From a bacterium (GTDB lineage: Bacteria; Bacillota_I; Bacilli_A; RF39; UBA660): a stretch of 41,084 nt of DNA. The notes beneath the pieces are model-generated. The model was not told the DNA's origin and did no database searches. It worked only from the letters and a program-made list of their open reading frames with translations. Positions 1,763 to 40,425 of the stretch are shown here, piece by piece. The stretch spans positions 1-41,084 of the forward strand of contig JAUNFS010000007.1 of NCBI GenBank assembly GCA_030524925.1, in the 5' to 3' direction. Within the stretch, counting starts at the first letter, position 1. Each line of letters begins with the position of its first letter. The position numbers were made by a program, and so were the translations under genes.

Positions 1763-2514
1763 TTTTCTTCCTTTTCTAACAGTTTTGCTAAAGCATTAGC
1801 ATTTAGTATGGTATTTGATATAAATTTTCCTTTATAAAAGTTTGCCCAATTGTTAAATACACATGGAGCATTTTTGGCTTTTTCTAGAGTATCAATTTTA
1901 ATAAAATTAATCTTGATTTTTTGAGTATTAGCATATTCTGATAATTCGCTTACTTCATATTCTACATATGGACACTCATTACTGTAATATATTGTAAATT
2001 CTTTTTCATTGATAGACATTTTTCTTGCTGTTTCATTAAATTTAGGCGTTTTTGCACTATCAAATGGTAAGGCTAAAAGTTCATAATCACCAATTGTATC
2101 TACTACTTTAAAACCGTAGTGTTCAAAAAATGATTTTTCGCTTAAGAATGGTTTTTTCTTTTTGCTTGATAGAACGCATAAACCTGATTTATTTTTAGAT
2201 TTAGCATCAGCTATCGCATAGTTAAGTAGGTCTTTGCCTATACCTTTTCCTTTAAAGCTACCTGCTACCCAAAGACAGTAGATATAAATATAATTTTCGC
2301 CTGTAATAGGAACCCAAGCGGTTTCTAAGGGTTCATATTCTATAAAGGTTTTTCCTCTATCATTAAGTTTTCTAAAAACATGGCCATCAGCAAATTTGTT
2401 TTTTAGCCACTTTCTTTTATTTTCTACACCTATTTGATGTTTAGGATCTCCAATAGCACAACATAGGTGTTCTTTTTCAATATTTTCATTTGTTAAATTT
2501 AGATATTCTTTCAT
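1759..2514 (-). CDS. yoaP: YoaP-like GNAT acetyltransferase with C-terminal thioredoxin-like domain
   Basis: A 251-residue two-domain protein. Residues ~1-155 form a GNAT N-acetyltransferase domain with the acetyl-CoA-binding loop SFKGKGIGK at ~86-94. Residues ~170-251 hold a thioredoxin-fold-like module beginning IYYSNECPYV and ending with the partner strand around APCVFNN. The length and order match the Bacillus YoaP family (GNAT plus YoaP-like domain). The acyl acceptor is not known for the family. It lies 12 bases after the methyltransferase gene and overlaps the next gene by 4 bases, so it sits inside one operon. Confidence 0.8.
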   Translation of the reverse strand: MKEYLNLTNENIEKEHLCCAIGDPKHQIGVENKRKWLKNKFADGHVFRKLNDRGKTFIEYEPLETAWVPITGENYIYIYCLWVAGSFKGKGIGKDLLNYAIADAKSKNKSGLCVLSSKKKKPFLSEKSFFEHYGFKVVDTIGDYELLALPFDSAKTPKFNETARKMSINEKEFTIYYSNECPYVEYEVSELSEYANTQKIKINFIKIDTLEKAKNAPCVFNNWANFYKGKFISNTILNANALAKLLEKEEK

Positions 2515-2526
2515 TCTTACTCCTTC

Positions 2527-3405
2527 TTATTTTTTAACTGCTAAAATGTAAGCTACTGATTTTGGTGCAATGATTTTAGAGCCTGGATTTAGGGTATTAT
2601 AATCGTAAAAATACTCTTTGGTCATTGCATCATGATCTAAGTATTCATAAATATATAAGTTATTACTTGCAAGGATAGATTCTATTTCTTGATAAGTATA
2701 TTTTGCTAGCATCTTTTCGTTAGCACTAGCTGCAAGTTCTTCATTGATTTTAGCTTCTTTTGAATAGTCAGTTGTTTGATAATCAAATAGAACACTACTT
2801 CCCTCTTTAATGTTACTAGCAATTGTTTTTATTAAGGCACTAAAGTCATCTTTTGATAAGTAGTAGCTAAGACCTAGCAAGCTATTAAATGATTTTTGGT
2901 TTTTGTCGTATGATGAATTATTTAAATTTTTAAGCCAACTGGCGCTTGTAAAATCTGCTTTAATGTACTGGGTGTTAAAAGATTTGATATGAGCATTTTT
3001 TAGTCTTTTTAATTTGTCTTCTATAACTTCTTCTTTATCTATTTCATAGCATTTTATTTTTTGGTCTAGGGTGCTAGTGCTGTAACCTGATGCGTAAACT
3101 ACATATTGTTTGCAGCCTAGCTTGATTGCTACATCTAATGATCTTTTATTAAAAGCACTTCGGCCTAATACTGATGGGCCTAATTGATTATTAACTATCC
3201 ACTTAATTGCTTCTTCTTTAGTACCAATAAAGTTTGGATTAAAGTATTTAATTCCTTGGGTCATATTATCAAGAATGCTTTCGTATTCTTCTTTGGTTAA
3301 AATATATTTTGCATATTTATCATCATATATTTTTAGATTACTATTTTGTTCATGATAGCATCTTACAAATGCACTTACTAGTGCGGTCATGTTATTTTCT
3401 TTCAT
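2527..3405 (-). CDS. SAM-dependent methyltransferase, PPM/LCM (TIGR00027-like) family
   Basis: A 292-residue cytoplasmic methyltransferase of the leucine carboxymethyltransferase-like class. It opens with MTALVSAFVRCYHE, typical of the family. The SAM-binding glycine strand is present in altered form (VVYASGYSTSTLD, usually G-x-G-x-D), followed by an acidic YEIDKEEVIEDK ribose-binding segment and SVLFDYQ. The substrate cannot be told from sequence; relatives act on small metabolites. The start is supported by AGAGGTGG eight bases upstream and a plausible promoter at 3426-3454. It is the first gene of a four-gene operon. Confidence 0.75.
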   Translation of the reverse strand: MKENNMTALVSAFVRCYHEQNSNLKIYDDKYAKYILTKEEYESILDNMTQGIKYFNPNFIGTKEEAIKWIVNNQLGPSVLGRSAFNKRSLDVAIKLGCKQYVVYASGYSTSTLDQKIKCYEIDKEEVIEDKLKRLKNAHIKSFNTQYIKADFTSASWLKNLNNSSYDKNQKSFNSLLGLSYYLSKDDFSALIKTIASNIKEGSSVLFDYQTTDYSKEAKINEELAASANEKMLAKYTYQEIESILASNNLYIYEYLDHDAMTKEYFYDYNTLNPGSKIIAPKSVAYILAVKK

Positions 3406-25639: not shown

Positions 25640-25860
25640 ATTGGCCTTGTACAAGAAATGTTATTTATTTAGTATAAACTTCTTTTGCGTATGCAAGCAG
25701 GCGCAAAAGAAGTTTATTGGCGGCAACTGCTCCTGCTCCAAGTGGTAATTTCGCAGACGTAGTTACCACTTCACATCAAAAACTCCAAGAAATATTTTTT
25801 TATTACCTCGCACTCTAGTTTTGTCCCTCAAAAGGTTTTTCGGGACATGAAACGTCTGAC
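25640..25860. other. Strongly structured, GC-richer non-coding segment after the variable gene
   Basis: No gene here. Three stem candidates occur in a row: a perfect 16-base inverted repeat (25674-25689 with 25702-25717, 12-base loop); AAGTGGTAA with TTACCACTT (25740-25748, 25763-25771); and TGTCCC with GGGACA (25822-25827, 25842-25847). The loop of the middle hairpin holds CAGACGT (25754-25760), which is complementary to ACGTCTG at 25852-25858, suggesting a pseudoknot. There is no good T-tract, so it is not a simple terminator. It lies between the diversified gene's stop (25884) and the next gene. Possible roles: 3'-UTR structure, small RNA, DGR-associated hairpin or mobile-element end. Confidence 0.5.
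25674..25717. repeat. Perfect 16-base inverted repeat
   Basis: Arm ATAAACTTCTTTTGCG and its exact reverse complement, separated by 12 bases. Confidence 0.9.
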
Positions 25861-25883
25861 GATTTGGGAGACAAAGTTATTCA

Positions 25884-27548
25884 CTATGTCGCTATCTTGT
25901 ACGGGCTTGTAGCACTACCTTCTCCACTTGATATTTTGACTCCCGACTGAAGTGATAGAGAGGGACGCACGCCGTAGCTGTAGTTAACGAAGCCGTTGAC
26001 AAGGAGGCTGTGAGCGCCATAAACACCCCAAACGTAAGCGTTGAGGCCAATAAAGACGTAAGGGGACAAAGCCCACCACCAACTTGAATTAGTATTTCCT
26101 CTTATATAATATGTTGAATTTGATATGCTTGTAGCCCCACCAGCAAAAGCAACCTCATCAACAGTAAGCAAGCCTATTTTTGCAAAACCACTTAATGCGC
26201 CATTTCCATACTCTGTATCATTTACAGTAAATTTAGATAACTTCCCTCCATTATTATCATTTGGGCATATTAAACTTGGCCCTGTTCCACCTGCTGTATA
26301 TGATGATGCTTGTACTAGTCTTTTAGTAGCACCATAATAATTTCCATTAGTTCCAGCACCATAATTTGTTCCTAGTGTATAATTGCCAGGATTAAATGTT
26401 GTATCAGTTACTACACTTTTATCGTTACACCATATTGTATCTGCTAACTGACTATCATTAAAACCCGATTGTTTAGAAAGTACATTAGTATACCATTTAT
26501 TTAGATTAGTTAATATTGTACTTGGGTTAGTATTAGCATGAGCAACAGTATAACTACTAGCTACTGCCGTACCATACATTAGCCCTACATAAGCATTATC
26601 ATTATAACTTGAATTAAATGCTGATGTATAAGTATCTCCTTCATATCTTGCAAAAGCATAATCACTTCCAGTTACATTACAAGGTGTACTACTAGATGGC
26701 GTATTGTTTGTACTAGTTAATCCATTATAATTATATAGAACCATCTTTATTGCACCATTTCCAGTTACTCTAACTATTCGCCAGCACATATTGGCATATT
26801 CTACATAATTGTTTTCTACTGCTCCTCTGAAATAGTAAGATGTACCATAATCATCTTCTGTACTTGCTAAAACTGCTTCATTATCAGAAGAAATTTCAGA
26901 ACCGGGAGTTGTTAGTGGTTCACTTACGTTTGCATTGTTTTCTCCTAGGATTTTAGATAATAGTGTTGGATGGTATTTTGCTGCTGTTACTGTTACTATT
27001 ATTTTTCCTTTCCAGGTTTTGTTTAGTCCTTGTTCATTAGTTGTTTCTGAGTTCATCCATAGTCTTAAATCGTATGATTTTGTTTCATTTCCTTTTAGGC
27101 CTGTTTCTTCTAGAATATAGGCTTTTCTTGTTGTGTCTATATCACCTAGTGAAAGAGCGCTTAAGATATTAGTTTTTCCAGTGGTTGCACCTTTTGGTGA
27201 TAAGTTTACTTTTACATAGTCATCTTTTAAATAAGTACTACTGGTACTTGTTCTATATTCACTGTAAAGAGTTATTTGAACGTCTACATAGCTATCACAG
27301 TTGTTTGTTAGAGTGAATGTAAATGGGTCTCCTTGCATTCCTCTTTCGTCGCTTATTGGAAAAGCATCTGATAAAATTATTTCTGATGTTTCTTCAGTGA
27401 AGCTTGTATCTAAGCAGGCTCTTACACTAACGGTATTATCTTTATCTTGTTTTTTATTTACTCTATAGTAAGCGAATGTTACACCAATTAGGATAATTAC
27501 TGTTACTAATAAACCTGCATATATTTTTATTTTTTTATTGTTATCCAT
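25884..27548 (-). CDS. Surface protein with DGR-type hypervariable C terminus (copy 1)
   Basis: A 554-residue protein. Residues ~8-27 are a membrane helix ending in TFAYY, like SipW/TasA-type anchors; residues ~40-195 are a beta-rich stalk. The C-terminal domain (~235-554) includes YYFRGAVENNYVEYANMCWRI, TIWCNDKSVVTDTTFNPG and YGVRPSLSL. The last part looks like a C-type-lectin/FGE-like ligand-binding fold of the sort diversified by DGRs. Codons in 25962-26081 are about 55% GC by hand count (66 of 120 bases), 21 of 40 end in C, and they differ from copy 2 mainly at first and second positions. It has its own strong promoter (27575-27603) and an AGGTGAT ribosome site. Surface location is well supported; the ligand is unknown. 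Confidence 0.8.
   Translation of the reverse strand: MDNNKKIKIYAGLLVTVIILIGVTFAYYRVNKKQDKDNTVSVRACLDTSFTEETSEIILSDAFPISDERGMQGDPFTFTLTNNCDSYVDVQITLYSEYRTSTSSTYLKDDYVKVNLSPKGATTGKTNILSALSLGDIDTTRKAYILEETGLKGNETKSYDLRLWMNSETTNEQGLNKTWKGKIIVTVTAAKYHPTLLSKILGENNANVSEPLTTPGSEISSDNEAVLASTEDDYGTSYYFRGAVENNYVEYANMCWRIVRVTGNGAIKMVLYNYNGLTSTNNTPSSSTPCNVTGSDYAFARYEGDTYTSAFNSSYNDNAYVGLMYGTAVASSYTVAHANTNPSTILTNLNKWYTNVLSKQSGFNDSQLADTIWCNDKSVVTDTTFNPGNYTLGTNYGAGTNGNYYGATKRLVQASSYTAGGTGPSLICPNDNNGGKLSKFTVNDTEYGNGALSGFAKIGLLTVDEVAFAGGATSISNSTYYIRGNTNSSWWWALSPYVFIGLNAYVWGVYGAHSLLVNGFVNYSYGVRPSLSLQSGVKISSGEGSATSPYKIAT
25929..25961 (-). other. Conserved 33-base block at the 3' edge of variable region 1 (IMH-like)
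   Basis: These 33 coding bases (SLSLQSGVKIS) are identical to 27672-27704, although the sequences on both sides differ. In known DGRs the variable region ends at a conserved initiation-of-mutagenic-homology site; this block is in the right place. The assignment as IMH is inference. Confidence 0.5.
25962..26081 (-). other. Candidate DGR variable region 1
   Basis: The 40 codons before the conserved block. Compared with 27705-27827, aligned pairs include GTC/GGC, GGC/GAC, CTC/CAC, AAC/TAC, TAC/CGC, CAC/GAC, CTC/GAC and GGC/TAC, as expected if each came from an AAC codon in a template whose A positions are randomised. Interspersed codons such as TTT, GTT, TGG and GGT are unchanged. Silent third-base differences (CCT/CCG, GTT/GTG, CGT/CGG, CCC/CCA) also fit A in a template. 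Confidence 0.7.
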
Positions 27549-27574
27549 GATTTATCACCTATTTTACTAATATA

Positions 27575-27603
27575 ATTATATAGTAAGTTGCTTTCTTAGT
27601 CAA
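27575..27603 (-). promoter_or_regulatory. Strong promoter dedicated to variable surface gene copy 1
   Basis: Minus strand TTGACT (27598-27603), 17-base spacer, perfect TATAAT (27575-27580), about 26 bases before the start codon and right after the terminator of copy 2. Confidence 0.8.
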
Positions 27604-27605
27604 TT

Positions 27606-27631
27606 AGAAAAAGCACTGTTTTGAAGTGCTT
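27606..27631 (-). terminator. Terminator after variable surface gene copy 2
   Basis: Minus strand AAGCACT, 7-base loop, AGTGCTT (27611-27617 and 27625-27631), followed by TTTTT. The 5' arm overlaps the TAA stop codon. Confidence 0.8.
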
Positions 27632-29315
27632 AATTTATCTTGTACGGGTTTGTGGCACTGCCAACCCCACCTGATATTTTGACTCCCGACTGAAGTGATA
27701 GAGATGGCCGCACACCGTAGAAGTCGTTGCCAACGAGGTAGTTTTCAAGGTCGCTGTCGCTGCCATGCACACCCCAAACGCGAGCGTAGTGGTCACTAAA
27801 GCCAGACGGAGACAAAACCCACCAATCACTTGAATTAGTATTCCCTTTTATATAATATGTTGAATTTGATATATGATAAGCTCCACCAGCAAATGCAATT
27901 TCATCAGCAGTAAGTAAACCTACTTTTGCATAGCCACTTAATGCTCCATTGCCATAAGTTGTGTCACTTGCAGTAAATTTAGATAGCTTTCCACCATCGT
28001 TATCATTAGGACATATTAGACTTGGCCCGGTGCCACCGGCTTCCCATGAAGATGCTTGTACGAATCTTTTGGTGGCACTATAATAATTTATATTTTTTGC
28101 ATAATCATAATTTGTACCTAAAGTCCAACTACCAGGATTAAATGTTGTATCAGTTACTACACTTTTGTCATTACACCATATTGTATCTGCCAACTGATTA
28201 TCACTAAAATTAGCTTGTTTAGAAAGTACATTTGTATACCATTTGTTTAAATTGGTTAATATTATACTTGGATTAGTATTAGCATGAGCATCTGAATAAC
28301 TACTAGCTCCTGCCGTGCCATACATAAATCCTACATAAACATTATCATTATAACTTGAATTAAATTTTGATGTATAAGTATCTCCTTCATATCTTGCAAA
28401 AGCTAAACCATTTCCAGTTACATTACAAGGTGTACTACTAGATGGTGTATTATTAGTACTTGTTAATCCATTGTAATTATATAAAACTAGCTTGATTGAG
28501 CCATCGCCTGTTACTCTTACTATTCGCCAGCACATATTAGCATACTCTACATAATTATTTTCTACTGCACCTCTAAAATAATAGCTCGTTCCATAGTCGT
28601 CGTCAGTACTTGCTAAAATTGCTTCGGATGAAGATGAAGTTTCAGAACCAGGTGTTGTTAAAGGGGTGGTAACTGTATTATCTTTTTTGATAGCAGCTAA
28701 TAATGTGCCTGTTCCGGGGTCTTCCCATGAAGGTTGTTCTTCTTCGGCATTAACAATAATTACTATCTTGCCTTCCCATGATTTGCCTAGACCTTCGTCT
28801 AGTGTGGTATTACTGTCCATCCAGGTTCTTAGGTCGTATTCTTTAGTTTCGCCACCTTTTAGGCCAGTTTCTGATATGATGTATCCTTTTCTTCCAGCTT
28901 CTATGTCAGTTAGTGTTAGTATTCCTAGGAGTTTGCTAGTACCAGTGGTTGTTCCTTTGGGACTTAGATTTACTTTTATCAAATTATCATTTAATAAGCT
29001 TGTACTAGTGCTTTCTCTGTTTTCATTTTCTATGGTGATTGTTAGCTTTACGTAGCTATCACAGTTGTTGGTTACACTAAAGGTAAATGGTGTTTGATTT
29101 AGGCCATCATTATCTGAAATTGGGATGGCATCTTCTAGTAGTATTCTTGATGTTTGTTCATTTAGTGTAGTGTTTAAGCAAGTTCTTGTACCAATTACAT
29201 TATCATTTGTTTGTTCTTTTCTTAGCATGAAGTACGCGTATGATACACCAATTATTAAAATGATTACTAGTAGCAAACCAATATATAATTTTATTTTATG
29301 TTTATTATTTTCCAT
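27630..29315 (-). CDS. Surface protein with DGR-type hypervariable C terminus (copy 2)
   Basis: About 561 residues. Membrane helix at ~8-27 (LYIGLLLVIILIIGVSYAYF), stalk to ~200 that is nearly identical to that of copy 3, then a C-terminal domain highly similar to copy 1 and ending YGVRPSLSLQSGVKIS. Codons in 27705-27827 are about 56% GC by hand count (69 of 123) against ~30% locally, with 18 of 41 ending in C. The ATG at 29315 is chosen for GAGG seven bases upstream. It is 14 bases from copy 3, whose promoter it can use, and has a terminator at 27606-27631. The mosaic of a copy-3-like stalk with a copy-1-like head suggests past recombination. Confidence 0.8.
   Translation of the reverse strand: MENNKHKIKLYIGLLLVIILIIGVSYAYFMLRKEQTNDNVIGTRTCLNTTLNEQTSRILLEDAIPISDNDGLNQTPFTFSVTNNCDSYVKLTITIENENRESTSTSLLNDNLIKVNLSPKGTTTGTSKLLGILTLTDIEAGRKGYIISETGLKGGETKEYDLRTWMDSNTTLDEGLGKSWEGKIVIIVNAEEEQPSWEDPGTGTLLAAIKKDNTVTTPLTTPGSETSSSSEAILASTDDDYGTSYYFRGAVENNYVEYANMCWRIVRVTGDGSIKLVLYNYNGLTSTNNTPSSSTPCNVTGNGLAFARYEGDTYTSKFNSSYNDNVYVGFMYGTAGASSYSDAHANTNPSIILTNLNKWYTNVLSKQANFSDNQLADTIWCNDKSVVTDTTFNPGSWTLGTNYDYAKNINYYSATKRFVQASSWEAGGTGPSLICPNDNDGGKLSKFTASDTTYGNGALSGYAKVGLLTADEIAFAGGAYHISNSTYYIKGNTNSSDWWVLSPSGFSDHYARVWGVHGSDSDLENYLVGNDFYGVRPSLSLQSGVKISGGVGSATNPYKIN
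27672..27704 (-). other. Conserved 33-base block at the 3' edge of variable region 2 (IMH-like)
   Basis: Identical over 33 bases to 25929-25961; see that entry. Sequence diverges immediately on both sides. Confidence 0.5.
27705..27827 (-). other. Candidate DGR variable region 2
   Basis: 41 codons, one more than variable region 1. Residues such as SDH, RV, HGSDSD and YLVGNDF replace those of copy 1, while Trp, Gly and Val scaffold positions are kept. The frame-preserving indel means the two regions may not come from exactly the same template. Confidence 0.7.
28751..29265 (-). repeat. Duplicated stalk segment (copy in variable gene 2)
   Basis: About 500 bases nearly identical to 30803-31305. 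The encoded stalks (LRKEQTNDNVIGTRTCLNTT to KSWEGKIVIIV) differ at only a few residues, with only scattered base differences, so the duplication or conversion is recent. Confidence 0.85.
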
Positions 29316-29329
29316 CTTTAACCTCAAAA

Positions 29330-31366
29330 TCATTCAACTACTTTGTATGGATTGGTAGCTGTTCCTTTTCCAGTTATTGTGGTTGATGATACAAGTGATA
29401 TTGCTGGGCGAATACCGTATTCCCTGTTGTTTGACGATAAAGTTGGTTCCCCAAATATTCTTGTTCCTTTAAGTACGCCAAAGTTATATACTCCGCGATT
29501 GTACCCATATGGTGTTGCTGTAAACCAATGATTTCCGTTACTATTTTCATTAAGATAATAACCACTACTTCGCTTTATGCTTGCATATGTGCCAGCATAA
29601 GCTAGTTCATCCGCGGTTAATAATCCAATTTTTTTATCTAATGCACCATTCCCGTTAGTTGTATCACTTACAGTAAACTTAGATAACTTTCCTCCATTAT
29701 TATCATTTGAGCATATTAAAGATGGACCACTTCCATTTGGAGTTCCTGCTTTTGTTAACATTCTTTTAACTGCTCCAAAATAAATTTGATTTCTGCCATA
29801 GCCTAGGTTTGTAAGATTTGTCATATTGTCTGGATTAAATGCGGTATCAGTTACGACACTTTTATCATTACACCATATTGTATCAGCAAGCTGATTTTCG
29901 TTAAAATTACTTTGTTTTGAAAGAACATTATCATACCATTTTTCTAAATTTTGAAGTATAATACTTTTATTAATATTTGCATGGGCTTCGGCATAAGATG
30001 ATGAGTTAGTCCACGTGCCTCCATTACTGGTACAAGCATTTTGAGTAAGGGATGTCTTATCTGAACAGCCGACATTACCATACATTAAACCTGCAAAAGC
30101 ATTATCTGTAGTACTATTGAATTTACTTTCTATAGTATCACCTTCATACCTAGCAAAAGCTAGATCACCTCCTGTTACATTGCAAGGAGTACTGCTTGCT
30201 GGAGTAAAATTATTATCTGTTAATCCATTGTAATTATATAAAGTTAATTTGATAGAGCCATCGCCAGTAATGCGAACTATTCTCCAACACATATTGGCAT
30301 ATTCTATAAAATTATTTTTAACAGCACCTCTAAAATAGTACGAGGTTCCGTAGTCATCTTCTGTGCTTGCTATAACGGCTTCGGTTTGATTTTTTACGGA
30401 ACAAAGAGACTTGTATGAAAAACTATCTTTTGTGGCATTTGTTATATAATAGACACACCCATAAGTATTTGAACCAGGCTTTACAGTAGCTGTTTCACTA
30501 CTTACACTAGATGGTGACCATGAGCTTAGGTATTTATTTATAAGGCTAGAATAAGAATTGGCATAAATATCTGATGTTACGTTAGAGTTAGCTAATATAC
30601 AGTCACTACCACTTGCTTTCCAATCAGTTCCGTAAGTCCAATAATAATTTTGATATGTTTCATCAACGCTTACAGTCGTAGTTGAGGCGTCATCTAATAC
30701 GTAGTCACTTATTTCTAGTCCAGGTGTTGTAAGTGGAGTCGTAACATTTGAATTATTTTTACCTAGTATTGCTAAATCTAATGCTTGTGGAGTCTCTTCA
30801 GCATCAACGATTATTACTATTTTGCCTTCCCATGATTTGCCTAGTCCTTCGTCTAATGTGGTATTACTGTCCATCCAGGTTCTTAGGTCGTATTCTTTAG
30901 TTTCGCCACCTTTTAGGCCAGTTTCTGATATGATGTAGCCTTTTCTTTCGGCTTCTATATCAGTTAGTGTTAGGATTCCTAGGAGTTTGCTAGTTCCAGT
31001 TGTTGTGCCTTTAGGGCTTAGATTGATTTTAATTAGATTATCATTTAATAAACTTGTACTAGTGCTTTCTCTGTTTTCATTTTCTATGGTGATTGTTAGT
31101 TTTACGTAGCTATCACAGTTGTTGGTAACACTAAAGGTAAATGGGGTTTGATTTAGGCCATCATTATCTGAAATTGGGATGGCATCTTCTAGAAGTATTC
31201 TTGATGTTTGTTCATTTAGTGTAGTGTTTAGACAAGTTCTTGTACCAATTACGTTATCATTTGTTTGTTCTTTTCTTAGCATGAAGTATGCATAAGATAC
31301 ACCAATTATGATAAGCACTACTACGAATAGACTTATGTAGATTTTTAATTTTTTGTTATCTTTCAT
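29330..31366 (-). CDS. Surface protein paralogue with extra Cys-containing insert (copy 3)
   Basis: A 678-residue protein with the same helix and stalk as copy 2, then an insert of ~110 residues (~230-340, with the Cys residues in SDCILAN, YGCVYYI and SLCSVKNQ) absent from the other two copies. The C-terminal domain keeps YYFRGAVKNNFIEYANMCWRI, IWCNDKSVVTDTAFNP and IRPAISL. The region that is variable in the others reads GNHWFTATPYGYNRGVYNF here and shows neither the GC rise nor the C-ending codon pattern, so it looks like a non-diversified scaffold. It has its own promoter (31387-31415) and an AAGGAGT ribosome site. Confidence 0.8.
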   Translation of the reverse strand: MKDNKKLKIYISLFVVVLIIIGVSYAYFMLRKEQTNDNVIGTRTCLNTTLNEQTSRILLEDAIPISDNDGLNQTPFTFSVTNNCDSYVKLTITIENENRESTSTSLLNDNLIKINLSPKGTTTGTSKLLGILTLTDIEAERKGYIISETGLKGGETKEYDLRTWMDSNTTLDEGLGKSWEGKIVIIVDAEETPQALDLAILGKNNSNVTTPLTTPGLEISDYVLDDASTTTVSVDETYQNYYWTYGTDWKASGSDCILANSNVTSDIYANSYSSLINKYLSSWSPSSVSSETATVKPGSNTYGCVYYITNATKDSFSYKSLCSVKNQTEAVIASTEDDYGTSYYFRGAVKNNFIEYANMCWRIVRITGDGSIKLTLYNYNGLTDNNFTPASSTPCNVTGGDLAFARYEGDTIESKFNSTTDNAFAGLMYGNVGCSDKTSLTQNACTSNGGTWTNSSSYAEAHANINKSIILQNLEKWYDNVLSKQSNFNENQLADTIWCNDKSVVTDTAFNPDNMTNLTNLGYGRNQIYFGAVKRMLTKAGTPNGSGPSLICSNDNNGGKLSKFTVSDTTNGNGALDKKIGLLTADELAYAGTYASIKRSSGYYLNENSNGNHWFTATPYGYNRGVYNFGVLKGTRIFGEPTLSSNNREYGIRPAISLVSSTTITGKGTATNPYKVVE
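30803..31305 (-). repeat. Duplicated stalk segment (copy in surface gene 3)
   Basis: Partner of 28751-29265. Boundaries are approximate and coincide with the membrane helix on one side and the start of the head region on the other. Confidence 0.85.
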
Positions 31367-31386: not shown

Positions 31387-31415
31387 ATTATAATAAATTT
31401 ATTTTGTTAGGACAA
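31387..31415 (-). promoter_or_regulatory. Promoter of surface gene copy 3
   Basis: Minus strand TTGTCC (31410-31415, overlapping the last codons of the giant prepilin gene), 17-base spacer, perfect TATAAT (31387-31392). Confidence 0.7.
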
Positions 31416-34400
31416 GGTGTTTATTGTTAAGTTATGATTTAGGGTGTAATTATTTCTATTTAGTCTTTGGCCATTTTCAATGTATATTGTTTTAATACCA
31501 TAATCGTCTCCATATATTGCATTGTTTTCAATGGTTTTGATTCCTTCTAGGGTTAGAGTTTCTAGTATTATGTTGTTATTTATTGAGTAGGATTTGATTG
31601 TTGTAATATCCTTAGTTAAAGTATATTCTGTTTGATTAAAGTATACTGGGATATTTATTAGAGTGTCTGCTTCTTTGTTTAGTAAAATACCATTTAGGGA
31701 TGAATAATTTTGGTTATCATCATGTACTATAAAAGATTCTATGTTTAGAATTAGTTTAGTGTTTATTTGTTCTAGTGAACTTGGAATATTTATAGTCATT
31801 TTAGTATTGTTATCTGCTACAAAGCCATTTAGACTATCAAATGCTAGATTAATGGTTCCTTCTTTAATAGAGATATTACCACTGATGTTATCTGGTACTA
31901 GTAAAAGATTATTATCTTTGTATAGGAGATTGTTTTCTGCTTGGAAGTTTGGTGAAAGACTTGTTATTTCTTTAAAATTGGTTCCTCTAAATGGTGTAGT
32001 TCCTAGGGTTTCTAGAGATTCATTTAGTTCTATTTTTTCAGCTTTGTTACCGTAGAATGCATATGAGCCAATTGTTTTTAAGCTTGCTGGTAGTTTGATA
32101 GATTCTATTGGCGCACCTGAGAAAGCATAGTCTTTGATTTCTTCTAAGTTATCATTTAGTAAAATATTTACTAGTGATGAGTTATTATTAAAGGCATATT
32201 CCCTAATTATTTTTAAGTTTTTACCTAGTGTTATAGTTGTTAAGTTTTCATTGTTTGTAAATGCTCTTTTGCCAATTTCTTCTAAATTATCTGGTAGATT
32301 TAGAGTTTCTAGTAATGAGTTTGCGAAGGCTGATTCACCTATTTTTGTTAGATTTGTTGGTAAGTTTATTTTTGATATGTTGGTATTATAGAATAAGTTA
32401 TTTCCTAGATAGGTTATTTCATCACTTATTAGGATATTAGTTATATTACTTGAGTAGTTATTCCATGGTGGTGTGTCATAGTCATAAGTTTCTCCGCTAC
32501 CAGTTATATCAAGAGTATAACCATCTGTTTGATCTATATTTTGATTATCATAAATGAATGCATAAGCATTATCTCCTACTCTGTAGTAGTTTTCATATTT
32601 ATATTTGGCATGAACTATTTCTTTAGTGGTTATACTTTTATTTGATAGGTCGTATGTGTCTTTTACTGCTCCTTCTTTTAGGGTTACAGTAAATGGTCCA
32701 TAGTTTGTGGTTGTTAGTAAATTTATGATGTATGAGTAACCGTCAGTTATAGATTTTTCTTTGCTTACTGAGTTTATTTTGGCGTTATCATTTGATATTT
32801 GGAAGTCGTTTATTGTTAAATCGTTTGGTGTTAAACCTCCACCTTTATCAGTACAACTTAAGAAAATATTTGCGGTTGAGTTGTCTAAAATCATTTCTGG
32901 AACACTAGTAAATGTACATACTGGAGATGGATTATAGATTATTGCATAGTAGGTTGTTCCACTACTATATCTATCTAGATGAATGGTATCACCTACACTA
33001 TATTCTCCGTATTCACTGTTTGGATTGGTACTCCAGCCTCTTGGTTCCGTTCCTATTACATAATCATATGATGGTAAGATTACGTCACAACCGTCAGTTA
33101 ATGAGAAAGCACTTTCTCGGCAGGTTAAGACATTTTCGTCTGCTTTTCCATATTTACCACCTGTTAGGTTGATACTAAATGTACTTGTAACATTTACGGT
33201 TATTTCTATAGATCCACAGCCTGCACCTGTTATAGTTATTTTTGTTCTTCCTCTTCTATTACCTGTAACTGTTATGGTGTCAGTAAATTCTTTATTTATT
33301 TCACTATTATCATCTTCGTTATAAGTACTTTCTCGTCTAGTGATTCTAGCAACACTTTCGTTTGATACTCTATAATTTAAGTTGCCAGTAGCTGCATAGG
33401 TTACTTTAATAGTTTTTGTTCCACCAGTGTCAACACTTATAGAACTTTGGTCAACTTCTAATTTATATACTCGGTAGTCTATTTGAGCTAAGCGGTTTCC
33501 GTTATTTTCTTTTAAATAGATAGATGTTACACCGGTATTATTATAACCTTTTTGATATGGAGTACCAGGTGCTGCATCAAGTTCGGCAGTAGTTACGTTA
33601 TGTCTATTTAGGGTCATATATCCGAAGTATGATTTAGAGTCTCCACAGTTATTTTTAATTTCTATTTTGGGTTCGGTTACTGATGATCCAACATTAGCTA
33701 GATAGTAGTCAGTCATTTCTTTATAGAAAATATTTTGAACACTTGAATCACATACTTGAGTATTATTTTGCTGTGATAATTTACCCGTGTTTGTTCCATA
33801 AATAGATATTGTATGGCTTGTCGTATCATTATATTTTTGACAGACATAGTTAACACTTTTATTATTTTCTCTTAGAGTAAGACTTGTTTTATAAATTACT
33901 GGTATACTAAATTCTAGGGTTCCTTCGGTTGGACTACTTATTATAACTTTAGTTGCTTCTTTATCTTTAATGTTATCAGCAATGTTTTCACCTTTTGTAG
34001 TTGTTAGTGTAAGAAGACCGCCTTGAATAGTACAGTTTAAATAATTGTCATCAGTTTTACAAGTGATGTTACTAATATCGTCAGCTATGATTTTACTAAT
34101 GAATTTAGTTGTATCGGTTCTTTCATCAACAGGAGTGTTACCACCATCAAAGAACATAAAGTCTGGGGTTGTTTTTTCTAGTTTGATATTAGTTACGTGA
34201 ATTTGTTTAGTTATTTGGCCACAGTTTTCACCTGTTATCGTTAGAGTTACTTCTCCTACTTCATAGCCTTTTAAGTAAATGGTAGTTTCGTTTGTTAGTT
34301 CTAGAGTTGTATAAAAGTTTTTGTTGTCTTTGGATATTTTAAGAGGGGTTTTACCATTTGCTGATGTTAATGTTACAGTAAGTTTACCTGTTTGACCATA

Positions 34401-35474
34401 AATTAAATTTAGTTTTTCAGAATTATCACCTACAGTGATATTAGTTACATCATTTGCAAATTTTAAATCATAAATGTTTTTATCTATTGTTCTACTTAAT
34501 CCAGCATTGCTTTCTTCTACTTTGATGCTTGCTTGGCCAGGTGTGTTTCCACTACTTAGATATAAAATATTTTTATTTATTGTAGCACTTAAGCCATTTC
34601 CTGTGTAAGTTATATTAGTTGTTCCAGCATTATTTTCATGAATATAGAGTCTTTCATTACTTAAAACTGGCATGCAGGATTCAATGTCTTCACTTTCGTT
34701 TACGTCGGTTATTTTAAATTCTACCTTTTTTACATTTATTGTGTAATTTTTATTTAATGTGATGTCTTCAGCATTTTCTTTATATTTTCCCGTTACGGTC
34801 ACAAAGTGATTTTCAGTAAAATTCGGCGTTACGCTTTTGTTTTGAGTAATTATTAGTTTTTGATTTTCTATTTGACAAGAAAAACTTGCTGAATTACTTT
34901 CACATGTGTATGTCATATCTTTGTTAGAACTAATCGTAGCTTCAATATTATCATTATTTTCTTTATTCCAATAAAAGGTGCTGAAACTTGGAAATACATC
35001 TAGATAGACATCGCCATTAACTGCTGGACATGAGTAGTTTTTATCTTCTTCATTATAGTATTTAGCAATAATATGAATAGTTCCTGGATCATAGCATAAT
35101 AGAACTTTACCTTTTATTTTTTCATTTGTTACAGGGTTTGAAATATAATTAATATTATTTTTTTTAGTATCGTTTTCAAGGTATCCATATGAAACAAGGT
35201 TTTCAATGGTTAAAAGACAGTCTTTATATATTTCACTTTGATCACCTATATGAGCATTTCTTTCTAAGTTACTAGTACATTTTTGATACAGATTAATATT
35301 ATCATTGCCGTATTTTTCCGCTGATGATGTTATTGTACTTAGCTTAGCATTTAATAAGCTTTCTTTGGTGTTTTTTGAGACGTTTGCGACTGCTGGTATA
35401 ACAATTATCATAATAACACCTAAAATTGCGATGACTGCTATTAGTTCAACCATTGTAAATCCTTTTTGTTTCAT
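31407..35474 (-). CDS. Giant prepilin-like adhesin with Ig-like domains and BspA-type leucine-rich repeats
   Basis: A 1355-residue protein that begins with a type IV pilin leader and helix (KQKG|FTMVELIAVIAILGVIMIIV, Glu at +5). The long stalk has Ig/BIG2-like beta units (for example RGRTKITITGAGCGSIEITV near 745) and an InlB-repeat-like stretch around 800-850 (PRGWSTNPNSEYGEYSVGD). From ~1010 to ~1230 run BspA/LRR_5 leucine-rich repeats (LPTNLTKIGESAFANS, LPDNLEEIGKRAF, LPASLKTIGSYAFYGN). Typical pilins are 150-200 residues, so this would be a very large minor pilin or tip adhesin. AGGAG precedes the ATG. It lies 14 bases after a minor prepilin gene. Adhesion is inferred from architecture. 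Confidence 0.85.
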   Translation of the reverse strand: MKQKGFTMVELIAVIAILGVIMIIVIPAVANVSKNTKESLLNAKLSTITSSAEKYGNDNINLYQKCTSNLERNAHIGDQSEIYKDCLLTIENLVSYGYLENDTKKNNINYISNPVTNEKIKGKVLLCYDPGTIHIIAKYYNEEDKNYSCPAVNGDVYLDVFPSFSTFYWNKENNDNIEATISSNKDMTYTCESNSASFSCQIENQKLIITQNKSVTPNFTENHFVTVTGKYKENAEDITLNKNYTINVKKVEFKITDVNESEDIESCMPVLSNERLYIHENNAGTTNITYTGNGLSATINKNILYLSSGNTPGQASIKVEESNAGLSRTIDKNIYDLKFANDVTNITVGDNSEKLNLIYGQTGKLTVTLTSANGKTPLKISKDNKNFYTTLELTNETTIYLKGYEVGEVTLTITGENCGQITKQIHVTNIKLEKTTPDFMFFDGGNTPVDERTDTTKFISKIIADDISNITCKTDDNYLNCTIQGGLLTLTTTKGENIADNIKDKEATKVIISSPTEGTLEFSIPVIYKTSLTLRENNKSVNYVCQKYNDTTSHTISIYGTNTGKLSQQNNTQVCDSSVQNIFYKEMTDYYLANVGSSVTEPKIEIKNNCGDSKSYFGYMTLNRHNVTTAELDAAPGTPYQKGYNNTGVTSIYLKENNGNRLAQIDYRVYKLEVDQSSISVDTGGTKTIKVTYAATGNLNYRVSNESVARITRRESTYNEDDNSEINKEFTDTITVTGNRRGRTKITITGAGCGSIEITVNVTSTFSINLTGGKYGKADENVLTCRESAFSLTDGCDVILPSYDYVIGTEPRGWSTNPNSEYGEYSVGDTIHLDRYSSGTTYYAIIYNPSPVCTFTSVPEMILDNSTANIFLSCTDKGGGLTPNDLTINDFQISNDNAKINSVSKEKSITDGYSYIINLLTTTNYGPFTVTLKEGAVKDTYDLSNKSITTKEIVHAKYKYENYYRVGDNAYAFIYDNQNIDQTDGYTLDITGSGETYDYDTPPWNNYSSNITNILISDEITYLGNNLFYNTNISKINLPTNLTKIGESAFANSLLETLNLPDNLEEIGKRAFTNNENLTTITLGKNLKIIREYAFNNNSSLVNILLNDNLEEIKDYAFSGAPIESIKLPASLKTIGSYAFYGNKAEKIELNESLETLGTTPFRGTNFKEITSLSPNFQAENNLLYKDNNLLLVPDNISGNISIKEGTINLAFDSLNGFVADNNTKMTINIPSSLEQINTKLILNIESFIVHDDNQNYSSLNGILLNKEADTLINIPVYFNQTEYTLTKDITTIKSYSINNNIILETLTLEGIKTIENNAIYGDDYGIKTIYIENGQRLNRNNYTLNHNLTINTLS

Positions 35475-35488
35475 ATGAATGCTCCTTT

Positions 35489-36040
35489 CTAATTAGTTTT
35501 AAAATAAATATTTATAGAGTAATCTTCTCCCGTTTTAGATTTTAAGTTTACTTTGATTTTATTTAAAATATGCGATGAAGATTCATTGTTTTCATCATTA
35601 TAGGTAGTTAGATTTATTAAGTTATTTTTGTCTAGGATTATTCCATCTGGAAGTTTTCTTGCGATGTTACTACTACGTTCTTCGCTTGTTAGATCTTCAT
35701 CTTCAATGTAGCCATATTTGATATATGTGTAGTCATCTCCAAATGATATTTTTTTGGCTATTTGTTTATTTAATTTGGTATCTCTTACGGCATTATAGGT
35801 AATTGTAACTTCATTTTTACTATCATTAATAGAAGCACTTGCTACCCCATAATTAAGTATATCTTTACCAATTGCATCAGTTAAGATTGTATTTAGTACA
35901 TCATAATCTACTTCTTGTTTACTTTTTCTATATAAATCATTTACAGTTATTAGTAATTTTGTTATAAATATTAGAATAATTGATACTAGTACAATGCTTA
36001 CGATTATTTCAACTAAAGTCATTCCTTTTTGATTTTTCAT
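35489..36040 (-). CDS. Minor prepilin-like protein
   Basis: 183 residues with leader KNQKG|MTLVEIIVSIVLVSIILIFI, i.e. Met rather than Phe at +1 and Glu at +5, followed by a pilin N-terminal helix and a soluble C-terminal domain. The size and position among other prepilin genes resemble PulJ/ComGF-like minor pilins, but subfamily cannot be set. It overlaps the preceding gene by 4 bases (36037-36040). Confidence 0.8.
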   Translation of the reverse strand: MKNQKGMTLVEIIVSIVLVSIILIFITKLLITVNDLYRKSKQEVDYDVLNTILTDAIGKDILNYGVASASINDSKNEVTITYNAVRDTKLNKQIAKKISFGDDYTYIKYGYIEDEDLTSEERSSNIARKLPDGIILDKNNLINLTTYNDENNESSSHILNKIKVNLKSKTGEDYSINIYFKTN

Positions 36041-36543
36041 TTGACATCTCCTATTTTAATTGATGCATATTCATATACTGCTGGAGTTTTACCTAGGGAG
36101 TTTTCATTTTCATACATAACGATTAGTCTATAAGCATTTTCGTCTGTTGCATCTAATTTATTTAGATAGTTTTGGGTTGTCGCTTCTAAGCTACTAAAAT
36201 TGTTTTTACCAATTTTGGCTGGATTCCAATTAGTTATGTATATTGAGTTAATATGCATTTGATTAACTAATTCTTTCATGTAGTTATCAGTAAATCTTTC
36301 TAAACAGGCATCTTTTCCTTGACAAATAGTTATTATAGTTTCAGTTTCTATATTGATATTTTTTTCAAGTAGGTAATCTTTAACTAATGTTGTTTTATAG
36401 ATGTACTCAGTGTTGTCGTAGTGAGACTTTTTTTGAACTGCTGTTATAACATTCATGTACCCACCATAGAGCATAATAAGTAGGACACATAAGACTAAAA
36501 TTACAACTATGGTTTCTATTAGTACAAAACCTTTTTTATTCAT
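36037..36543 (-). CDS. Minor prepilin-like protein
   Basis: About 168 residues with leader MNKKG|FVLIETIVVILVLCVLLIML and Glu at +5. The start at 36543 is chosen because GGAGG lies about eight bases upstream and the leader is then a normal five residues; the frame opens further upstream but inside the neighbouring gene. The soluble part contains a Cys pair (ITICQGKDACLERF). Likely a minor pilin of the initiation complex (inference). Confidence 0.8.
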   Translation of the reverse strand: MNKKGFVLIETIVVILVLCVLLIMLYGGYMNVITAVQKKSHYDNTEYIYKTTLVKDYLLEKNINIETETIITICQGKDACLERFTDNYMKELVNQMHINSIYITNWNPAKIGKNNFSSLEATTQNYLNKLDATDENAYRLIVMYENENSLGKTPAVYEYASIKIGDVK

Positions 36544-36557
36544 GTGACTTACCTCCT

Positions 36558-37466
36558 TTATTGTGCCCATGTGATGTTGCATGTAGTGTCTTTTAGTGTG
36601 TTTTTTACAGTTAAGGTGTAAGGACTATCAGTTTTGTCTGGTTCTTTTTTATTTAATTCGTATTCTACGTCTGTTCCAGTAATATCTTTGCAAGTAACTT
36701 CAGCATTTTGATAGGCACTATAGGGTGTTATAGTAAATTCTAGTTTGTCATCTTTAATAAAGTTTTTATATGTATAAGCTACAGTTCCTTCAAAATAGGA
36801 AATGTTATCATCAACCCACTCTTTTGATGGTATGTTATTTTCATAGGTATAAGATAAATCTAAAAGCATCAGTTTAGTGATGTATGGTCTTGTAGAAAGA
36901 TAATTTTTACCTATTTCAGTATAGGATAAGTCTGCTGGATTTTGGACATTTATAATTTTGCTTATTCGTTCCCATGATGGAAGATTACTGCTTGAATCAA
37001 GTGTTATGTTACTGTCTTGATTAACCATAATATTTAGTAAGTTGCTTGCTCCTTCACCATAGACTTCTGCACTTAAATAGTATGTATCATTATTTTTAAG
37101 ATTTATAGCTTGGCTTAGATAGCCTGTTCCACTATTTTTTACAAGACATATTTGGCCAAAATCTGCTAGTTTAAAGTCTGCTGTTCCTTCTAATGACCAA
37201 TCTTTAAAGTTTTCTTCTTCATAGGCAAAGGTACCATTTTTTATTAGGTTAGTTAGCATTACGCCACCATCTATGTTTGAGTATGATGAATAAACTGTTA
37301 TTTTATGATTTCCAGTGTTGATTCTATCTAATACTTCACTATTATACCTATCTAAAATTGTTTTGTTAGCTATGTAAGCTCCCAAAAGAGCAGTTAGGAT
37401 GGCTATAAACGCAAGAAAAAAAGTATAGATTAAAGATGTTGCTATAAAACCACTATTATTTTTCAC
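36558..37466 (-). CDS. Pilin-like protein with carbohydrate-binding-like domain
   Basis: 302 residues, GTG start with AGGGTGAT upstream. The N-terminal KNNSG|FIATSLIYTFFLAFIAILTALLGAYI is pilin-like in position but has no Glu at +5, as in some GspK-type minor pilins. Residues ~70-200 resemble a CBM4/9-type jelly-roll domain (NLIKNGTFAYEEENFKDWSL, YYLSAEVYGEG). The C terminus has a few Cys residues in a beta-rich tail (TCKDITG, TTCNITW). It may place a sugar-binding module on the pilus. It starts the second transcription unit of the locus, with an extended -10 (TGATATACT, 37489-37497) upstream. Confidence 0.7.
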   Translation of the reverse strand: MKNNSGFIATSLIYTFFLAFIAILTALLGAYIANKTILDRYNSEVLDRINTGNHKITVYSSYSNIDGGVMLTNLIKNGTFAYEEENFKDWSLEGTADFKLADFGQICLVKNSGTGYLSQAINLKNNDTYYLSAEVYGEGASNLLNIMVNQDSNITLDSSSNLPSWERISKIINVQNPADLSYTEIGKNYLSTRPYITKLMLLDLSYTYENNIPSKEWVDDNISYFEGTVAYTYKNFIKDDKLEFTITPYSAYQNAEVTCKDITGTDVEYELNKKEPDKTDSPYTLTVKNTLKDTTCNITWAQ

Positions 37467-37488
37467 TCTATCACCCTACTATGGTATA

Positions 37489-37497
37489 AGTATATCA
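37489..37497 (-). promoter_or_regulatory. Extended -10 promoter of the minor pilin operon
   Basis: Minus strand TGA followed by TATACT (37489-37494), 22 bases before the GTG start; no good -35 box, since the expected place is the T-tract of the pilin terminator. Confidence 0.45.
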
Positions 37498-37509
37498 TTT
37501 TTTTTGAAT

Positions 37510-37530
37510 AAAAAAAAGACTAAATGTCTT
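37510..37530 (-). terminator. Terminator after the major pilin gene
   Basis: Minus strand AAGAC, 5-base loop, GTCTT (37516-37520 and 37526-37530), followed by a run of T. The stem is short, so partial read-through into the minor pilin genes is likely. Confidence 0.65.
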
Positions 37531-37987
37531 AGCACTCACCAGCATTTAAATCTAATTTTGCGGTTGCAGTTTTATATTTTGAACTTAGTGTAATATTGAT
37601 ATTTAAGCAGTCTAAGCATTTGTTTTTGTCTGTTGGATTAGGAACAGCACAAGTTTCATCTTCTAAAGTTTCTCTTTTTAAATCACCACTGGTAATTAGA
37701 GTCTTTATGTTTATAGTAAATTGATAGTTACATTCATCTTCGCTTTTACATACGCAGTTTTCATTTTGGTTATTAATGTCACATATACCGTAATGATTTT
37801 TTAGTGAATTACTGTTACTTTGCACATAAGATACTGCTGCAGTTTCAATAGTGTTTATTTTAGCTTCTAAAGCTTTTTCATTCATTTTATCTCTGATTTT
37901 ATAGATACCTGGTATAGCTATAGCCATGATAATTCCTAGTAAAACAATTACTGCTAAAAGTTCTACTAAAGTAAAGCCTTTTTTCAT
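37529..37987 (-). CDS. Major type IV pilin-like protein
   Basis: About 152 residues with a canonical leader and helix: MKKG|FTLVELLAVIVLLGIIMAIAIPGI, Glu at +5 and a Pro in the helix, as in PilE/ComGC. The C-terminal half has six clustered Cys residues (CDIN, CVCKSEDEC, CAVPNPT, CLDC), probably disulfides. The ATG at 37987 is preferred to the GTG at 37996, which would abut the GGTGG ribosome site. It is followed by a terminator, an arrangement common for abundantly made pilins. Confidence 0.85.
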   Translation of the reverse strand: MKKGFTLVELLAVIVLLGIIMAIAIPGIYKIRDKMNEKALEAKINTIETAAVSYVQSNSNSLKNHYGICDINNQNENCVCKSEDECNYQFTINIKTLITSGDLKRETLEDETCAVPNPTDKNKCLDCLNINITLSSKYKTATAKLDLNAGEC

Positions 37988-38000
37988 TTTATTCACCCAC

Positions 38001-38759
38001 CTACCTTAATGATAATAGATTTTTTAAAAATAGTATTGCTAAATTACTGTTAAAATATAAAAGTAACATACTTACTGCAAGAAACGGTCCAAAAGGTAGC
38101 ATATTTTCTTCTCTTTTCACAGTAATATACATAGCATATGGAAAAGCTAAGAATGATGCTAGGATGATATAAAATATTCCTAATAGTGGTCCAAGAGCTA
38201 AACCAGCTATAAATGATAATTTTATATCTCCACCACCTAAAGATTCTTTTTTAAATAGGAAGTTTCCTAAGAGCATTAGAGCATATACTAAAGCAAATAT
38301 TAAAAGTCCTGATAGCACAGACATTATTGTTTTGTTTATTCCTTCAAATATTAGTTTTGTAATGATAATTAGCAATCCAGAAATTATTAGTGGTCCATCC
38401 GATATAATCATGTATTTAGAATCACTAACAATTATTATTATAACTAGACTTGATATTATAAGGCTGATAATAAAACTTTCAGTAAATCCAAATAATAAAT
38501 AGCCAAATAAGAAAAGTATTCCTGTTAATAGTTCCATTACAGGATAGATGAAAGATATTCTTTGGTGACATGATTTACATTTTCCTTTTAAAAAGATAAA
38601 TGATAGTACTGGAATATTTTCATACCATGATAGTTTGTGATTGCATTTAGGACAATGACTTCCTGGATAGATAATTGATTCATCTTTAGGAAGTCTTAAA
38701 CCTACTACGTTATAAAATGAGCCAAATATTAAGCCAATTATAAATATAAGAATTTCCAT
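38001..38759 (-). CDS. pilD: Prepilin peptidase (type IV leader peptidase, A24)
   Basis: 252 residues, about seven or eight transmembrane segments. The N-terminal cytoplasmic loop has the zinc-binding C36-x-x-C39 and C61-x-x-C64 of bifunctional prepilin peptidases/methylases, and the catalytic aspartates are D113 (SDSKYMIISD) and D178 in GGGDIK. It cleaves the class III leaders of the prepilin-like proteins in this locus and may N-methylate the new N terminus. It lies 7 bases after pilC. Confidence 0.93.
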   Translation of the reverse strand: MEILIFIIGLIFGSFYNVVGLRLPKDESIIYPGSHCPKCNHKLSWYENIPVLSFIFLKGKCKSCHQRISFIYPVMELLTGILFLFGYLLFGFTESFIISLIISSLVIIIIVSDSKYMIISDGPLIISGLLIIITKLIFEGINKTIMSVLSGLLIFALVYALMLLGNFLFKKESLGGGDIKLSFIAGLALGPLLGIFYIILASFLAFPYAMYITVKREENMLPFGPFLAVSMLLLYFNSNLAILFLKNLLSLR

Positions 38760-38766
38760 AACCCAC

Positions 38767-40425
38767 CTACTTAATTTGATTATATAAACTAAACATTGGT
38801 AAAATTACTGCTAGAACAATTCCACCTACGACAACTGCTAAAAAGATTATCATTGTTGGTTCAATAAAGTTTTTCATATTGTTAATAATTGTTTTGTGTT
38901 CTGTTTGATAGTACTCAGCTACTTTATCCATCATGGCAGCTAGTTCCCCAGTTGATTCACCAGTTACAATCATGAAGTAAGCAACTTCTGGAACCGCCCA
39001 TTGATTTTTAAATGATTCACTGATTTTTTCACCTTTGGCAATATTGTTAATTGTTTTAAACATAATTTCTTTGTATATTTCATTTTTGGTTATTTCACTT
39101 AATAAGTTCATACTATCAGTGATAAATACATTATTTTTTAGTAATGATGCAAATGTTTTAGCAAAAACGTTCATTTCTTTATAGATAATTATTTTACCAA
39201 ATAGAGGAATTTTCATTGCAAAAGTTTGCATACTTTTTCTAATTGATTTAACTTTCTTATAAAGAACAACTATAACTACAATGATTAGAATAAAGCCACC
39301 TAGTAAGTATACAAAGTTTTTATCAAAGAATTTACTTAAGTTAAGAACCCATAATGTGTAGCCATTTAAGGTTGCTTCTGTAGATGCATAAACTCCTTCA
39401 AATTGAGGAATTACATATAACATAATGAATACTACTACGGCAATTGAGAATACTGAGATGATTGCTGGGTAACTCATAGCATTGATCATGGCTTTTCTTG
39501 TATTATCCAATTCAGTATAGTATGCGGCTAAGTCATCTAATGTTTCTTCTAGTTCACCTGTTGCTTCTGCAGCTTTTACCATACTAATTAGTAATGCTGG
39601 GAATGAGTTTCTTTGTTTTTCTAGAGCAGAAGAAAATGATTCTCCTAAGGTTAAATTATAAATAATAGAGTCAAAAACTCTTTTTTTACGCGGACTTTTA
39701 CTCATTTGTTTTCCTAAAATACGCATTGAATCTGTTAAAGTGATACCAGCTTTTAGGTAAGTAGATAGCTGAGTTAACCAAAATATTAAATCTTTATTTC
39801 TAAAACGATAATTATTAAATTCTGATGGTCCATAAAATAATTCAATGTATTTACTAGTTTCAATTGTTAGAACAGTATTACCTTCGTTAGTTAAATAGGT
39901 ATAGACTTCCATTTTTGAGTATGCATAAAATACACTAGTTATTTTTTTACCACTAGAATCTATTGCTGTATATTTGTAGGTTACAGGCTTTTCGCTTCTA
40001 TCTGTGTCTGTTTGCAATGCTGCATAGAGGTTTTGATTTTGAATTTTTTGAGCTTCTTTTTGTTTTTTTACGAAAGGTAAATTATTATAAAATTCTTGCC
40101 ACTTATCTTCTAAAGTAGGTTTATATTCTAGTTTTGTTTCTTCACTTTTGATGGGTTCTTCCTTGGTGTTAGTTATAGTTTTTTCTTTTTTGAATGCATC
40201 TACTCCACTATCTAAATTGATAGTTTCTTCTTCTAAGGTTTCTATCCCTACTTTGTTTTTTTGTTTTTTTTCATAATTATTAAATATTTTATCTCCTATT
40301 TTATTAAATATGAAGATAAATGGATACAGTAAGGCATAGCAAGTATAGTAAATGCCAAGTACTTCATATTTTAGGAGGTTAAATGGAAATAATAATATTT
40401 TTAATACTATATTTTGATTATTCAT
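38767..40425 (-). CDS. pilC: PilC/GspF inner-membrane assembly platform protein
   Basis: 552 residues, longer than the usual ~400. Two T2SF domains are clear at ~210-335 (LTQLSTYLKAGITLTDSMRI, MVKAAEATGELEETLDDLA) and ~415-545 (FAKTFASLLKNNVFITDSMN, IVTGESTGELAAMMDKVA), with three transmembrane helices. A PilC-type N domain (YKYTAIDSSGKKITSVFYAY) is at ~145-190. An extra N-terminal ~140 residues carry a hydrophobic hairpin (~8-40) and an acidic linker. It interacts with the assembly ATPase and pilins in relatives. It is the first gene of the locus, with promoter 40453-40481 and AGGAGG upstream of the ATG. Confidence 0.92.
   Translation of the reverse strand: MNNQNIVLKILLFPFNLLKYEVLGIYYTCYALLYPFIFIFNKIGDKIFNNYEKKQKNKVGIETLEEETINLDSGVDAFKKEKTITNTKEEPIKSEETKLEYKPTLEDKWQEFYNNLPFVKKQKEAQKIQNQNLYAALQTDTDRSEKPVTYKYTAIDSSGKKITSVFYAYSKMEVYTYLTNEGNTVLTIETSKYIELFYGPSEFNNYRFRNKDLIFWLTQLSTYLKAGITLTDSMRILGKQMSKSPRKKRVFDSIIYNLTLGESFSSALEKQRNSFPALLISMVKAAEATGELEETLDDLAAYYTELDNTRKAMINAMSYPAIISVFSIAVVVFIMLYVIPQFEGVYASTEATLNGYTLWVLNLSKFFDKNFVYLLGGFILIIVVIVVLYKKVKSIRKSMQTFAMKIPLFGKIIIYKEMNVFAKTFASLLKNNVFITDSMNLLSEITKNEIYKEIMFKTINNIAKGEKISESFKNQWAVPEVAYFMIVTGESTGELAAMMDKVAEYYQTEHKTIINNMKNFIEPTMIIFLAVVVGGIVLAVILPMFSLYNQIK

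Follow-up and report, generated by a model that had tools for sequence, protein, structure and literature searches.

Two paralogous surface-protein genes as very probable remote targets of a single DGR in a small genome of uncultured gut Bacilli

Diversity-generating retroelements (DGRs) are known, and targets that lie away from the retroelement itself have already been established for Treponema and for the cyanobacteria. The TvpA DGR of Treponema denticola combines one reverse transcriptase (RT) and one template with surface-protein targets in cis and at remote positions, 2-7 per isolate; some of these targets show an excess of mismatches at positions other than the template adenines, and leftover targets are found in strains that lack the RT (PMC4891356). 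For the cyanobacterial DGRs 76 remote targets were described in one set (PMC7517822), and Trichodesmium erythraeum has 18 TR/VR loci with two DGR RTs (PMC8867640). DGRs with two templates have also been recorded (PMC6642488). The domain DUF6273 is a DGR target domain in gut phages, where it was modelled as a C-type lectin (PMC11792537, PMC10743442). Large surveys that are restricted to the neighbourhood of the RT overlook remote targets (PMC8144416).

The window, i.e. the whole stretch of DNA analysed here (41,084 nucleotides), is an entire contig (C18) of a draft genome of 905,118 bases in 38 contigs, which is 85% complete. Two paralogous genes in the window are, with very little doubt, both remote (trans) targets of one DGR that has its core on another contig, C25 (Table 1).

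Table 1. Features of the window and of contig C25 (positions on the latter carry the prefix C25)
Feature	Position	Strand	Description	Basis
Target gene 1	25884..27548	-	554 aa; hydrophobic anchor at the N-terminus, variable domain at the C-terminus, weak DUF6273 match	ORF and Pfam
VR1	25962..26078	-	117 bp, in target gene 1	Limits from alignment to template; BLAST E 1e-29
33-base coding block	25929..25961	-	TCTCTATCACTTCAGTCGGGAGTCAAAATATCA; after VR1, identical copy after VR2; not in template	
Structured element, three hairpins	25683..25865	-	3' of target gene 1; 85% identical to C25:81-282; fold z-score -4.6	
Target gene 2	27630..29333	-	567 aa; 71% identity to its paralogue, gene 1	
VR2	27705..27824	-	120 bp, in target gene 2; exceeds template by one codon	Template alignment
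Third paralogue, same family	29330..31366	-	678 aa; AT-rich C-terminus, without VR; ordinary GC and codon use	
Template	C25:392-508		117 bp, AAC-rich, non-coding; WWALSPNDFNGNNANVWDVNGDNSNLDNDNVNNNNGVRP	
RT gene	C25:1447-2547			Found with PF00078

The variable regions of the window

An earlier note on this DNA had pointed to a GC-rich stretch in each of the two genes as a DGR-type variable region (VR). Both are indeed VRs, and the positions given were right within one codon (on the 5' side). The GC content rises to 0.55 and 0.57 in the VRs vs 0.33-0.34 in the gene bodies, and codons ending in C make up 21/39 and 18/40 of the VR codons vs 10-14% in the bodies, both as described before. The proposed bias of the VR1-VR2 differences to codon positions 1 and 2 did not hold, as these differences are distributed 10/12/9 over the three positions; with 22 of 31 at the first two, which is near chance, the bias was discarded as too weak to be evidence of A-directed change. 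The A-directed change itself emerges from the comparison with the template. VR1 is changed at 19 of the 34 A sites and at a single one of the 83 other sites (Fisher p 9e-12), VR2 at 19 of 34 and 12 of 83, respectively (p 1e-5). This bias of the template-VR mismatches to A supports the view that the VRs are the mark of adenine-specific mutagenesis from an AAC-rich template. The anticipated template, with A at the variable positions, and the DGR-type RT are both present in the same genome, on C25.

The VRs are located at the 3' end of the genes and their homology to the template stops at GGCGTGCGTCCC, beyond which the flanks differ, as would suit a putative IMH vs IMH*. The earlier note had also listed the 33-base block among the DGR features. 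Its conservation after both VRs was confirmed, but the block is absent from the template, for which reason it was rejected as IMH, and it is different in most other paralogues. The block belongs to the coding sequence that a subgroup of the paralogues has in common and is no DGR-defining element. The third paralogue in the window gave no match to the template and was consequently rejected as a VR carrier.

Directly upstream of the target genes, and on the same strand, the window contains a type IV pilus or competence-type cluster (31407-40425). It encodes a T2SSF protein, a prepilin peptidase and three N_methyl prepilins, one of which (1355 aa) contains BspA-type LRRs. The target proteins have hydrophobic N-termini, in which the N_methyl prepilin match of the gene at 31407 is missing. 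A functional link between the three paralogues and this cluster would be speculation.

The suggestion that the targets are C-type-lectin-like variable proteins is weakly supported, by weak matches to DUF6273, for target gene 1 at E 1.9e-4 (21.8 bits vs a cut-off of 23.5) and at E<=1 for 10 of 27 family members (best E 1.1e-6). The C-type lectin fold around the VR is a putative one; AlphaFold models, made with 12 and then with 8 homologues, had a pLDDT of 37 both times, and a sequence search of the PDB gave no match.

The DGR core and the paralogue family

Contig C25 starts within the 3' end of a gene of the target family, which is followed by the hairpin element, the template, a MutS_I-domain gene, an Avd-like gene, the RT gene and two more target paralogues. 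This RT is the only one in the genome that is detectable with PF00078. Its best solved relative is 8ub7 (1e-22, the next being at 4e-9), far ahead of group II and other RTs, and we take this structure to be the DGR RT of Bordetella phage BPP-1. The protein carries the sequence IGNMTSQ, a motif of the [IVL]GxxxSQ kind, as in DGR-type RTs, and relatives of it occur in DGR phages, e.g. crAssphage LMMB. The MutS_I domain was identified above the cut-off (PF01624, E 3e-6, 28 bits), and the Avd-like gene by matches to NF033474 (E 3e-6) and PF22296 (E 7e-5), both under the curated cut-offs. Changes at A turn none of the template codons into a stop, and the number of possible peptides is ~10^20. Rfam gave no match in the window or in the initial 20 kb of C25. 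Since the window and C25 share paralogues and the hairpin element, and since VR1 matches the template at 82 of the 83 non-A positions, we argue that C25 is part of the genome of the same organism.

The family comprises about 28 paralogues in the draft, and at least 11 of the genes carry VRs. In 11 of them the template mismatch is A-biased at p<1e-3, and a further gene, C28a, is borderline. Pooled over these 12, 63% of the A sites differ from the template, vs 20% of the C, 12% of the G and 10% of the T sites, and in the seven clearest VRs the A sites are occupied by G (81), A (80), T (54) and C (17). The paralogues without VR mostly have AT-richer ends, and the fixed scaffold residues of the template are conserved for 52% in these proteins vs 90% in the VR carriers; they may be retired or never-targeted members of the family. 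A search of viral contigs with the target proteins yielded no relatives, and the conserved alignment did not provide a pattern suitable for such a search.

On the basis of the known mechanism, the template RNA would be reverse-transcribed with random bases placed opposite A, and the cDNA would then replace the homologous 3' part of the target genes, including those at distant loci. The outcome would be a membrane-anchored surface protein with a C-terminal, probably ligand-binding surface, in which many variable codons are placed on a fixed W/G/V scaffold.

The relatives of this system are found in MAGs of uncultured gut Bacilli, with best RT matches that are 42-50% identical. The VR-template pairs that adjoin the RT in these relatives display the same A bias, e.g. 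21/42 A sites vs 4/84 others in L077. In four loci from Bacilli and rumen relatives that have the targets upstream of the RT (L076, L077, L078 and L079), the halves of the variable domain lie several hundred residues apart, as though a further domain had been placed between them. Similar paralogue families are present in genomes of the same genus. One of these, G002, has a large family in which some ends are GC-rich and VR-like; no RT was detected in this 84%-complete draft. Another, G003, has its own DGR (L162, contig C11) with three tandem templates of 117, 117 and 108 bases (about 2285-2995, minus strand), located between a target gene and the MutS_I gene. The VRs of G003 sort by template in length and scaffold: L162 and L167 go with the short template, L179 and L166 with the first long one, and L175 has a VMIV scaffold in common with the second long one. 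The sequence that follows the template (GATAGAGAAACAAGCATA...ATTAGGAG; L004:575-660 and the matching stretch of L162, minus strand) is conserved among the DGRs of this genus; it could be the structured spacer RNA in the template transcript.

Template history and alternative explanations

Several VRs carry A, T or C where the present template has G (columns 22, 64 and 85). The non-A share of the VR2 mismatches is 39%; those at columns 64 and 85 fall on sites where other VRs too carry A, T or C, and 6 of the 12 lie within the first 18 or last 12 bases, regions in which many VRs depart from the template. In VR1 both columns 64 and 85 have G. The pattern looks like an AAC-to-GAC change of a template codon that took place once the VRs mismatched at these columns had been written. 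VR1 would then fit the present template, and VR2 and other copies would fit earlier template states, since several of them carry A, T or C at a present template G. The VRs thus probably date from different times, VR2 looking older than VR1. The clear non-A mismatches make the link of VR2 and several other VRs to the C25 template an indirect one.

The main rival to template drift is a second template, missing from the 85%-complete draft or collapsed in the assembly, that wrote VR2 and similar VRs while the C25 template wrote VR1. We consider this possible but doubtful. It would explain why VR2 is one codon longer and why VR2 and six other VRs have TCTCCG in common at the 5' edge, and the three tandem templates of two lengths in the sister genome G003 offer a precedent. 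However, a BLAST search with the template found no other template-like loci outside the target genes in the genome, so that a second template elsewhere in the draft was rejected, and the shared differences are also compatible with boundary effects and single-template drift.

The window genes could also be relics, duplicated together with the 3' hairpin element from the cis target and no longer rewritten, so that only the cis target is active. The copy of the element on C25 (C25:81-282) sits just upstream of the template, and the sharing of this element with the flank of gene 1 suggests that duplication carried a target gene and its flank away from the DGR locus. The drift of VR2 and other VRs away from the template would also suit such a history. 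Nevertheless, we regard it as unlikely, because VR1 retains its near-complete non-A match to the template although its flanking element shares just 85% identity with the C25 copy; this favours a later rewriting of VR1, after the duplication, over simple inheritance. The C25 DGR may still be rewriting the window VRs. Partial copies of the hairpin element were found at C14:63-214 and C20:12539-12622, and the element recurs 3' of target genes.

Finally, gene conversion among paralogues with diversifying selection and without any retroelement, for which the size of the family and the flanking blocks shared between subgroups might speak, is hardly credible: in 11 genes the changes cluster at adenines of the template, a non-coding sequence that has a DGR-type RT gene together with Avd-like and MutS_I genes next to it.

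Comparison with known systems

What is notable about the trans-acting DGR proposed here is its target density, with at least 11 VR genes in a ~0.9-Mb draft in which one RT was found (a gene family that seems unusually large in relation to the genome), together with the signs of template drift and the three tandem templates in a sister species. Tentatively, one DGR could generate the whole surface-antigen repertoire in this genus of small-genome gut Bacilli: genes within a family of ~28 paralogues would be rewritten in trans, the template itself evolving or being present as tandem versions, and other members would pass out of reach, drift and preserve a record of past template states. The analysis connects a hypervariable family of surface proteins, from uncultured gut Bacilli, with a specific mechanism of mutagenesis, and indicates how many trans targets one DGR may serve in a small genome. 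Whether DGRs switch templates is a question that the tandem templates of the sister species make directly accessible.

The system resembles the TvpA DGR of T. denticola in having one RT and one template for cis and remote surface-protein targets, some with excess non-A mismatches. It differs in the number of targets (at least 11 genes with VRs, among ~28 paralogues, in a roughly 0.9-Mb Bacilli genome), in the accessory genes (Avd-like and MutS_I-like vs HRDC) and in the target domain (putative DUF6273-type vs FGE-sulfatase type). With the cyanobacterial DGRs (PMC7517822, PMC8867640) it shares scattered paralogous targets that carry their VRs 3'-terminally and are served in trans, although the cyanobacterial targets are mostly predicted to be cytosolic, whereas those described here have N-terminal hydrophobic anchors. 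The C-terminal position of the VR is as in Faecalibacterium prophage proteins, in which it maps to the C-terminus of DUF6273 (PMC11792537, PMC10743442); the latter, like the gut-phage tentaclins, are phage proteins, whereas the present family is a cellular surface family with a DUF6273 match just under the Pfam cut-off. The order target, template, Avd and RT is that of the DGR of Bordetella phage BPP-1 (Mtd), the RT of which is also the closest solved relative, but in contrast to BPP-1 the system described here is cellular, has many targets and includes an additional MutS_I-domain gene.
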